Source: a virus. Taken from it: a stretch of DNA of 28,011 nucleotides. Shown piece by piece: positions 285 to 6,169 of this stretch (position 1 is the stretch's first letter; the number at the start of each line of letters is the position of its first letter). The position numbers and the translations under genes are program-made. The notes below the pieces were generated by a model. That model did no database searches. It had not been told where the DNA came from and saw nothing but the letters and a program-made list of their open reading frames with translations. The DNA is taken from the IMG/VR virus record IMGVR_UViG_3300008262_000475, positions 1 to 28,011 of that record; one strand, given 5' to 3'.

Positions 285-794
285 TTATGACTTGAATACA
301 GGCTTGCCAAAACCTACGATATAAACTGGCAACGAACGTTTAATCTTTGAACCATTCTTAACCTTGTATGCACGTATCTTCTTGCATACCTGACCACCAT
401 TGCGCTGGTCACCCTTCTTGTCAGGGCTAGTGTTACCTTCAATACAGGTTACAGTTCCGTCTCCGTTGTCTTTAACCACGATTCCAACATGACTAATACG
501 GTCAACACCATCGTTGGGAAAATCAAAGAAAACAATATCCCCAGGTAGTGGAGTCGCTTCATTTACTTTCTCCCACTGCCCTTTCTTAATGAACGCAGTA
601 GCGCCCGCCACTGTGCTGACCACATTAGGAATCTTAAGTCCCACTTCATTTGCACACCAATTCACGAATGAGCCACACCAAGGCAAGAAGTTTGCTTTAG
701 TGAATGCTCCATATTTTGTTTCATTATCTTTTGGTCCCTCGATAACATCGAGTTCTCCCTTTGCAACTGCAATAAAATCTGCACGTTGACCCAT
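285..794 (-). CDS. CHAP-domain endolysin
   Basis: A 169-aa cell-wall hydrolase consisting essentially of one CHAP (cysteine, histidine-dependent amidohydrolase/peptidase) domain. The nucleophile is probably Cys40 in PWCGSFVNW, the histidine His102 in ISHVGIV, and the third residue Glu119 in IEGNTS. PLPGDIVFF at 83-90 is the usual strand before the catalytic His. No separate wall-binding domain follows; the basic tail at about 138-169 may serve for attachment. No signal peptide is visible, so release should need a holin. The ATG at 794 lies one base after the stop of the upstream membrane gene. CHAP enzymes cut peptidoglycan as amidases or endopeptidases, and the sequence alone does not tell which. 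Confidence 0.9.
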   Translation of the reverse strand: MGQRADFIAVAKGELDVIEGPKDNETKYGAFTKANFLPWCGSFVNWCANEVGLKIPNVVSTVAGATAFIKKGQWEKVNEATPLPGDIVFFDFPNDGVDRISHVGIVVKDNGDGTVTCIEGNTSPDKKGDQRNGGQVCKKIRAYKVKNGSKIKRSLPVYIVGFGKPVFKS

Positions 795-795
795 A

Positions 796-1038
796 TTATT
801 CGCTCGCTTTCTTATCTACCTTAGCAAAGGCTGCGTTTATTTCTTCTGATGTAAGGCTTCCATCTGCTAGATAGAAGCGTGCTAATGCTTCAAGCACTCT
901 TGCTGCGCCAAGCGCACCTGCGAGTGTTGCTGCTTGCCATACTTCAATGCCAACAAGTGAGCCAGCACCGATAACTCCGAGTGATTCTGCTGCAATAACA
1001 GCAAAGATTCTCATCATTACATTCTTAAATGTATCCAT
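796..1038 (-). CDS. Small membrane protein, possible holin
   Basis: An 80-aa protein with a hydrophobic N-terminal half, about residues 8-50, rich in Ala, Gly, Val and Ile. It can form one or two membrane helices, with GAGSLVGIEVW as a possible turn. A short charged C-terminal part follows (SLTSEEINAAFAKVDKKASE). It begins at an ATG that shares one base with the stop of the 57-aa gene (TAATG) and ends one base before the endolysin. Position and size suggest a holin or antiholin, but I see no family signature, so the role is inferred from context. Confidence 0.6.
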   Translation of the reverse strand: MDTFKNVMMRIFAVIAAESLGVIGAGSLVGIEVWQAATLAGALGAARVLEALARFYLADGSLTSEEINAAFAKVDKKASE

Positions 1039-1211
1039 TATTCATCGTCCTTTAAGTTGCGTAGATTAAGTGTGACTATCCAGATGACTAAACAAATCAC
1101 AATTGCATAACCAACAACTGTCTTGGCAGAACCTTCAAGGACTACCCAAGCAACAAACATTCCAAGGAGTGTCCATAGTTGGTTGGCAATATCAGATAGT
1201 AATTTTTTCAT
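1038..1211 (-). CDS. 57-aa two-helix membrane protein of the lysis region
   Basis: This ORF of 58 codons starts at the ATG at 1211, which shares one base with the stop of the proline-rich gene, and ends in TAA sharing one base with the next ATG. The protein begins MKKLLSDIANQLW. It has two likely membrane helices, residues 12-27 (around LLGMFVAWVVL) and 32-48 (around VVGYAIVICLVIWIV), and a charged tail NLRNLKDDE. Double TAATG coupling on both sides supports it as real despite its size. A holin, antiholin or helper role is possible; nothing identifies the family. Confidence 0.7.
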   Translation of the reverse strand: MKKLLSDIANQLWTLLGMFVAWVVLEGSAKTVVGYAIVICLVIWIVTLNLRNLKDDE

Positions 1212-2344
1212 TATGGTTTTCTCCTATAGGCTGCGGTAGCAGCAGCACCTGCTGCTGCTTGTGTTGCTATACCACCTGCAATGATTGCAGATACAACTAC
1301 TTCTTCTGCATCCTTGCGTACTTCTGGTGGTAAGTCCGCCCCCACATTTCCGAATGCTGCAAGTGCAGCACCTGGGTCTGTGAATAATTCTTGTAACAAT
1401 GCTGCTGGGTCTTGCAATAAAGCCACAGCAATTGCAACTTCTGCTGTTATAACTACACCATTCTCCAAGGTAACTGGGGTATTAGGTGCTAGACTTTCTA
1501 GGTCAACACTATTAACACTAGGAGGTTCAAGTGATATTTCAGGCTGAGGTTCTGGCTCAGACTCTTCGACTGGCTCAGGAGAAGGCTCTGGCTCTGGTGC
1601 AGGCTGCTCTTCCTCGGCTGGAGGTAGAGGCGGCTCTTCTGCAACGGGAGGTGCAGGCGGTTCTTCGACAGGCGGTTGCTCTTCAACAACTGGCGGCTCT
1701 TCCGCAGGAGCAGGTGGCTCTTCAACAGGTTCAGGAGCGGGTTCAGGAGCCTCTGGAGCGGGTTCAGGAGAAGGTTCAGGGGCTGGTTGAGGCTGAGGCT
1801 CAGGTTGAGGTGCTGGAAGCGGGACAGGTGCAGGACTTGGTTCAGGCTCCACTACTGGTGGAGGACTGGGTAGGCTGGGTTCAGGTTGAGAAGGAGAAGG
1901 AGTAGGTTCAGATGGAGTTGCTAATACTGTTTGCGTTTCTGACTGGTTGGTTTGTGTGCTGGATTCAGATGTCGAAGTCTGAGTCTCGGCAGATTCAACA
2001 ACTACAGTTGGAGAATCAACAACTGCAGTCGGAGAGTCAGAAGTTACAGTCGAAGTCTCGGAAGGAGCAGCAGTTTGCTCAGGAGAGGGCGATGGCTCTG
2101 GAGTGGGACTTACAGTAGGCTCTGGTTCTGGTGTAGGTACTACTCCGCTATAGTAACCCAAAGAAATATCGCCAAGATTGTCAGAGATATAAAGAACGTA
2201 TGGGTTTGCATATCCACCTTCACAATAAAATCTAGGGATGTATCCCTTATCTAGGGATGTATCCCTTATTGGCAAAGAACTGTTGACTATTATCCCAACC
2301 AATTTGGAATGAGCGTTGCTCGCCACCTTCAGTAGCACATACAA
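1211..2344 (-). CDS. Proline/glutamate-rich surface protein, C-terminal part of a split gene
   Basis: Open frame of 377 codons. Residues about 70-269 (bases 1538-2137) are a low-complexity spacer of Pro, Glu, Ser and Thr built from PEP, PAPEP and EEPPA units. Residues 270-377 look folded and end in a hydrophobic Ala/Gly segment followed by YRRKP, which could be a membrane helix with a positive tail. The first 33 or so residues are probably not real: they are the other frame of the upstream fragment, and a 19-bp duplication at 2232-2269 brings the frame in at KGYIPRFYCEGG. Without the extra copy this joins a signal-peptide-bearing N-terminus in one protein of about 404 aa. A rigid Pro-rich spacer between an export signal and a hydrophobic end suggests a wall-spanning envelope protein, perhaps for lysis or exclusion. 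That is inference. Confidence 0.7.
   Translation of the reverse strand: MYVLLKVASNAHSKLVGIIVNSSLPIRDTSLDKGYIPRFYCEGGYANPYVLYISDNLGDISLGYYSGVVPTPEPEPTVSPTPEPSPSPEQTAAPSETSTVTSDSPTAVVDSPTVVVESAETQTSTSESSTQTNQSETQTVLATPSEPTPSPSQPEPSLPSPPPVVEPEPSPAPVPLPAPQPEPQPQPAPEPSPEPAPEAPEPAPEPVEEPPAPAEEPPVVEEQPPVEEPPAPPVAEEPPLPPAEEEQPAPEPEPSPEPVEESEPEPQPEISLEPPSVNSVDLESLAPNTPVTLENGVVITAEVAIAVALLQDPAALLQELFTDPGAALAAFGNVGADLPPEVRKDAEEVVVSAIIAGGIATQAAAGAAATAAYRRKP
2232..2269. repeat. Perfect 19-bp tandem duplication that shifts the reading frame
   Basis: The unit ctagggatgtatcccttat occurs at 2232-2250 and again at 2251-2269 with no mismatch; two further bases before it (2230-2231) also match at the same offset. 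Each unit holds the imperfect palindrome agggat-gt-atccct. Since 19 is not a multiple of 3, the second copy moves the minus-strand frame and creates a TAA stop after KGYIPR. The frame offset between the two ORFs (2480 versus 2344, 136 bases) minus 19 is 117, an exact multiple of 3. Confidence 0.97.
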
Positions 2345-2444
2345 CAGTAGCGTTACCGTATGCTGCTTGTGCTACAGGACTCCAAAAGAATGAAGTACCC
2401 AAGACGATAAAGAATACTGAGTACTTACTTGCCTTTACTCTCAC
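2247..2444 (-). CDS. Signal-peptide N-terminal part of the split proline-rich protein
   Basis: This short frame encodes the export signal and first folded part of the gene whose remainder is at 1211-2344. From the GTG at 2444 the protein starts MRVKASKYSV, runs through a hydrophobic core (FFIVLGTSFFW) and reaches SPVAQA, a good signal-peptidase I site after residue 27. The mature part begins AYGNATVVCATEGG and stops after KGYIPR because of the 19-bp duplication. The Cys here and the Cys just beyond the break (RFYCEGG) could pair once joined. The start is uncertain: a TTG at 2480 would add 12 residues, and neither has a clear ribosome site. The GTG overlaps the end of the 74-aa gene by 20 bases. 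Confidence 0.6.
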   Translation of the reverse strand: MRVKASKYSVFFIVLGTSFFWSPVAQAAYGNATVVCATEGGEQRSFQIGWDNSQQFFANKGYIPR

Positions 2445-2649
2445 AGAGGATAAGGTAAATCTGGTCAACGCGTTGTTCAACTCGGTCCAATCGTTCGCTG
2501 TTAATATTAACTGCGTCCCTCATGCTGCTACCTGAATTTGGTTTCAGTTCGCTTAAGTAATGCTGGACTAGCCAGCGAATTCCTGCTGTAAATCCAGCAA
2601 GTAGAGTCATTATGGCTACGGCAAAGCCAGCCCATTCTGTTGGTGTCAC
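2425..2649 (-). CDS. 74-aa membrane protein with C-terminal coiled coil
   Basis: Starts at a GTG (2649) that shares one base with the TAG stop of the large tail protein (TAGTG). One membrane helix at residues about 6-31 (AGFAVAIMTLLAGF, then GIRWLVQHYL) is followed by LKPNSGSSMRD and a heptad-like stretch at 48-70 (NSERLDRVEQRVDQIYLIL). Small proteins of this plan, one helix plus a short coiled coil, are common just before the lysis genes of phages of Gram-positive hosts. Their role is not established. It opens the lysis end of the operon. Confidence 0.7.
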   Translation of the reverse strand: MTPTEWAGFAVAIMTLLAGFTAGIRWLVQHYLSELKPNSGSSMRDAVNINSERLDRVEQRVDQIYLILCESKGK

Positions 2650-5727: not shown

Positions 5728-6029
5728 TAGGAAATCTCCACTCCGCTAATATGAAATTTTACTGTAGTTGCTGATGCAAGACCAGCAATAATCTTTGTTG
5801 TAGCAAGTGTTTGCTTTAGGTCAAATGCTGCTGTTGAGTTAGCAGCAATTGCTGTATCCTTAAACAAATCAACGCTATCAAGCGTAATAGTAAATGTTGC
5901 TGCACTAGCAGCAGAGTTAGTTACCACAATATTAGTCACTACTGTAGTAGTAGATGATGGAACTGTGTATAGGGTTGTGCTTGTTGTTGCTGCTGCTGTG
6001 CGAGCCAGAGCCTTAGATGTTGTAGCCAT
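5727..6029 (-). CDS. Small beta tail protein, paralog of the 109-aa gene
   Basis: A 100-aa Ala/Thr-rich protein with no charged clusters. It shares with the 109-aa product at 7937-8266 the start MATT-K-L, the segment TTLYTVPSST, a following VV--I-V-N, AATF-I, LATT, and the end G-EIS. Both genes sit directly before beta- or Gly-rich tail genes and both couple to the next gene through TAATG. The ribosome site AAGGAAG lies before the ATG at 6029. The fold is probably a small beta-sandwich that decorates or joins the fiber. The function is unknown. Confidence 0.7.
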   Translation of the reverse strand: MATTSKALARTAAATTSTTLYTVPSSTTTVVTNIVVTNSAASAATFTITLDSVDLFKDTAIAANSTAAFDLKQTLATTKIIAGLASATTVKFHISGVEIS

Positions 6030-6049
6030 TAGTTACTACTTCCTTTTCT

Positions 6050-6169
6050 TTACTTTGAATCCATAATGTCTTCGATGACAATTGGTTCTGCTAGTGCTGT
6101 TACTTGGGTTGAAGTAACAAGTGTTGTTGCTGTTGAGCCAAGGTTGGCTAGGTCACGGGCTTTAGTCAT
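6050..6169 (-). CDS. 39-aa mini-protein with a fiber-like ARDLAN motif
   Basis: Forty codons from the ATG at 6169, which shares one base with the stop of the 58-aa gene, to the TAA at 6050-6052. The protein starts MTKARDLANLGSTATTLV and ends EDIMDSK. KARDLANLGS recalls a short segment I remember from fiber and other virion proteins of aquatic phages, where it precedes a long repeat region; here almost nothing follows. It could be a remnant of a fiber gene or a tiny structural peptide. Coupling on its upstream side and a 20-base gap with a ribosome site downstream support translation. Confidence 0.5.
   Translation of the reverse strand: MTKARDLANLGSTATTLVTSTQVTALAEPIVIEDIMDSK

Follow-up and report, generated by a model that had tools for sequence, protein, structure and literature searches.

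A 19-bp tandem duplication divides a modular, predicted secreted late gene in a metagenomic relative of freshwater-actinobacteria phages

The window analysed here, a linear 28,011-bp virus record, comes from a metagenomic relative of the phages of freshwater actinobacteria, and its late gene block contains a gene whose signal peptide and proline-rich C-terminal part lie in two different reading frames that meet at a 19-bp tandem repeat. The locus raises the question of how this gene came to be divided and whether it still yields its protein. The original prediction offered three causes: an on/off switch set by repeat number, a fresh mutation in one phage of a population, or an assembly artefact. 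Among these a fresh mutation fits best, as the relatives are intact and single-unit, and we consider a recent slippage duplication that truncated, and probably inactivated, an accessory secreted late gene to be the best explanation of the locus (probability about 0.75).

Layout of the divided gene

The two copies of the 19-bp unit are free of mismatches, as had been claimed, and the array found by Tandem Repeats Finder (Table 1) extends the originally reported span of 2232-2269 by two overhanging bases, AT. A 33-base core of the duplication occurs once in the window and in none of 100 dinucleotide shuffles. Each unit contains AGGGATGTATCCCT, a 6-bp inverted repeat with a 2-nt loop (AGGGAT-GT-ATCCCT) that merely corresponds to the codons for KGYIPR; the DNA hairpin of a single unit is weak (-3.1 kcal/mol), and the unit ends share the 2-bp microhomology AT.

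The duplication shifts the reading frame, 19 not being divisible by three, and brings a premature stop into the signal-peptide frame (frame A), which ends in ...QQFFANKGYIPR and a stop codon at 2247 (...FFANKGYIPR), the position at which this frame had been said to terminate. The proline-rich and C-terminal parts were likewise correctly assigned to another frame (frame B), open to 1211, and the lengths calculated for a one-unit gene (404 aa from the GTG at 2444, 416 aa from the TTG at 2480) are arithmetically correct. Frames A and B overlap by about 125 nt. The translation of frame B includes ...DKGYIPRFYCEGG... and, where the second unit begins, continues as KGYIPRFYCEGG; its homology to relatives begins solely at that unit (FYCEGG...).

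Table 1. Features of the divided gene and its neighbours in the window
Feature	Coordinates	Strand	Remarks
CHAP-domain endolysin	285..794	(-)	Same late gene block
Small membrane protein, downstream	1038..1211	(-)	Start overlaps the stop of the divided gene
Conserved C-terminal domain, about 99 aa	1211..1513	(-)	Putative membrane anchor with a hydrophobic segment rich in Ala/Gly, followed by the basic tail AYRRKP
Frame B	1211..2371	(-)	Open between the stop at 2374 and the stop at 1211
Stalk, about 211 residues	1511..2143	(-)	32% Pro, 19% Glu
Second half of head domain	2143..2269	(-)	FYCEGGYANPYVLYISDN...GYYSG; carries the second conserved Cys; no longer in the frame of the signal peptide
Exact tandem duplication	2230..2269	(-)	Unit (period) 19 bp, 2.1 copies; Tandem Repeats Finder, 100% match
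Frame A	2247..2444	(-)	Starts at GTG 2444 or, further upstream, at TTG 2480; encodes a signal peptide with an AQA-A cleavage motif and the first half of the Cys2 head; stop directly after KGYIPR
Holin-like small membrane protein, upstream	2425..2649	(-)	phrog_9869, annotated unknown function; 20-nt overlap with the start of the divided gene

All parts of the gene family are present in the window, although not in the one reading frame that they share elsewhere. The signal peptide and Cys2 head (A2 profile) match at 92% over the 39 of 71 positions that precede the break, and frame A is 90.5% identical in amino acids to its counterpart in relative L002 over 63 codons. The C-terminal domain (A3), ending in YRRKP, lies in frame B with 78% identity to L002 over all 99 positions. 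The slot that the gene occupies has the holin-like gene on one side and, on the other, the small membrane protein, a phrog_26427 gene and the CHAP endolysin. On that latter side, positions 1-1053 of the window are 96-97% identical in nucleotides to L011 and L025, and the adjoining region just 76-77%; judged from the alignments, this jump would mark an exchange on the endolysin side between mosaic genomes.

Intact homologues and the rarity of frame breaks

Relatives were collected from IMG/VR viral contigs, with ORFs counted as distinct. A search with the signal peptide and head fragment gave 46 relatives in viral contigs, 45 of which stay in one frame beyond KGYIPR, traverse the stalk and finish in ...AYRRKP or a similar C terminus. 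The relatives added by a profile search were again single ORFs; the exceptions were truncated at contig ends, apart from L093, which shares its contig with L004. A third sample, drawn independently by way of the upstream holin-like gene, presented the same picture. Altogether 98 distinct relative ORFs hold both parts in one frame (the anchor is joined to the same head family in 87 and to another head in 11), which supports the reading of the window locus as a split gene; the five head-only ORFs are four cut by contig ends and L004.

None of about 100 relatives carries the two-unit allele, and the comparison with related contigs that the original prediction had proposed yielded no relative with two units and separate genes. 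The exact two-unit allele, or either allele with a variable gap, was also absent from the other viral contigs searched, a set that possibly does not include the nearest records. Genome contigs of the searched collection contained no host or prophage copy with the head and anchor profiles, and querying named phages with the signal peptide and head fragment returned no match.

Frame breaks are rare in these contigs. A tblastn scan of 85 loci, in which a break was kept if supported by at least 3 loci, retained three: the window (40 loci), L004 (26 loci) and the endolysin gene of L042 (25 loci). The last is an apparent frameshift near position 7489 of L042, in that relative's CHAP endolysin gene. 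Two of the three breaks fall in the split gene, an excess that is not significant; the window was selected for its break, and therefore no excess can be claimed. The second broken copy, in L004 (the same contig as L093 and L140), has an out-of-frame 74-bp deletion relative to L007, 11-12 codons beyond KGYIPR (region 5850-6100), and this lesion is unrelated in kind to the 19-bp duplication. Across 812 kb of family DNA, the other exact tandem duplications in the period range 12-60 all have a period divisible by three, except for a 14-bp AT-rich one (L032); the window has the one sizeable case that shifts the frame.

The two halves of the window gene have different nearest relatives, L002 for the N-terminal half (92.6% nucleotide identity) and L011 for the C terminus (94.3%), and the gene is mosaic as well. 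On codon alignments, dN/dS is 0.25 for the N-terminal half against L002 and 0.04 for the C terminus against L011, values at which both halves still appear to be under constraint. The lesion is probably young, because frame B has acquired no additional stop codons and both halves retain a low dN/dS.

The break falls at residue 39 of the 71-residue head. Modelled from L002 with 65 relatives, the head is predicted with high confidence (pLDDT 94) to fold in the order strand, strand, helix, strand, short helix; by this model the fragment made from frame A would lack most of the main helix (residues 37-43), strand three and one of the two invariant cysteines, the second, and from the reading frames it would also lack the whole Pro/Glu-rich stalk (211 residues) and the C-terminal anchor, for which the model is of low confidence (pLDDT 71). 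A signal peptide is missing from frame B, in which no start preceded by a good ribosome-binding site was found after the break. Since frame B has no convincing start, signal peptide or recoding signal, a null allele is the simplest reading, and the window allele probably is one, with a product that we take to be non-functional.

Origin of the duplication

We propose that an accessory secreted late gene gained a second copy of 19 bp of its head domain through replication slippage. The polymerase would have paused at the hairpin formed by the quasi-palindrome and then slipped between breakpoints that share AT. Translation from the normal start would now end after about 65 residues and release a secreted fragment; the remainder of the gene, still open, would have neither signal peptide nor credible start, leaving a probable null. 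Slippage is documented for hairpin templates, with deletions between direct repeats flanking hairpins observed in vitro (PMC4134008). The original suggestion that the palindrome favours slippage stands in so far as it could explain the origin of the event; the palindrome does not demonstrate a conserved hypermutable element.

That the duplication was made in vitro during library preparation, or came from a rare read, and so entered the consensus is unlikely, though it deserves the most weight among the alternatives. The allele is known from a single contig, with no second contig of the same population, and hairpins in the template make PCR polymerases slip as well (PMC4134008). A single 21-mer would also occur twice in the 40-bp array; small assembly k-mers have this size, and a minority of junction reads could therefore create an assembly loop. 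However, the one-unit sequence would have just a 2-bp repeat at the breakpoints, so the assembler would need at least some reads that carry the junction, and the tblastn scan placed no other frameshift relative to the relatives in the rest of the window. On balance we infer that the phage, and not the library, was where the duplication arose, and put the chance of a genuine mutation, not an artefact, at about three in four.

A contingency switch, in which one unit is ON and two units OFF and the repeat is kept for phase-variable display of the head protein, was also part of the original prediction. Stochastic gain or loss of a unit would then toggle a head-on-stalk display and leave the phage population mixed for the protein. 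An exact 19-bp tandem repeat can collapse through slippage, so the null is reversible in principle, and the L004 copy provides a second, independent frame break nearby. Against this, a maintained switch would retain the repeat, and the relatives have not retained it. The identical quasi-palindromic 14-mer stands in single copy in 8 relatives, including L027 with the same flanking AT, which indicates that the motif is not a maintained switch; in other relatives, synonymous codon changes disrupt the palindrome as the KGYIPR region drifts. The 74-bp deletion in L004 is moreover unrelated, and slippage cannot restore it. The comparison thus leaves the proposed switch unsupported, and we regard it as improbable, well below the artefact.

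The long open frame B and its overlap with frame A would suit a pair of separate genes, or a programmed frameshift between frames A and B. Both readings are very improbable, as the overlap has no -1 slippery heptamer (X-XXY-YYZ) or homopolymer run, the local RNA fold of 2200-2310 is unremarkable (z -1.13, for structures free of pseudoknots) and the N-terminus of frame B is neither coding nor a separate gene in any relative.

The intact protein and its likeness to known systems

As a mutation the 19-bp duplication is ordinary, and the gene is more interesting than its lesion. A modular gene occupies the slot downstream of the holin-like gene (window 1211-2444; L128-L190), composed of a common signal peptide, an exchangeable head, a Pro/Glu-rich stalk and a common C-terminal domain. 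The heads include the Cys2 type of the window (GYIPR/CEGG), a YRGGSATYTG type (L133), PA14 (L137, L166, L175; E about 1e-10) and a type with CVTSAQAATIAAAI (L139, L160). Sequence searches of Pfam, PHROGs and PDB with the Cys2 head and the anchor returned merely weak, inconsistent matches. A fold search with the head reached a VIA-align Z of 3.9 at best, and no match to a solved structure had E <= 0.001; the one viral model that it matched is an uncharacterised phage protein, probably a member of the same family. Our literature searches found no description of the gene.

The succession of head, stalk and anchor suggests that infected cells display the intact protein on their surface; that it might block re-adsorption there, bind wall sugars or help lysis is guesswork. 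The gene would thus encode a modular, apparently surface-displayed phage protein with swappable heads, in phages whose relatives infect the abundant freshwater Nanopelagicales. If reads showed the two-unit allele at high frequency, a conserved late gene would be losable in the wild, a sign that selection disfavours it in some hosts.

The proposed event resembles the slippage products described at quasi-palindromes (PMC4134008) in having an exact tandem unit around a short inverted repeat with microhomology at its ends, but deletions were measured in vitro there, whereas here a duplication is deduced from one sequence. Like phase-variable contingency loci built on short coding tandem repeats, the window has a repeat whose number would set the reading frame; unlike them, it has two units rather than an array, conserved in none of about 100 relatives. 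The intact protein shares with the wall-spanning surface proteins of Gram-positive bacteria a signal peptide, a head, a Pro-rich stalk, a C-terminal membrane segment and a basic tail, but it is phage-encoded, no LPXTG-type sorting motif was seen in it and its C-terminal domain matches no known family.

Among cultured phages, the Planktophila phages LanE43AprE7 and F5 (PMC10202952; OX376640, OX376641; L125, L126) share with the window a tail protein that is 59-60% identical, the holin-like gene and the gene order up to that point. They differ in that the split gene is absent and an endolysin, assigned by eye as M15-like, directly follows the holin-like gene; the slot is apparently empty in L173, L185 and L186 too. 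Since E7 and F5 do without the split gene, its loss, as proposed for the window, is evidently tolerable.
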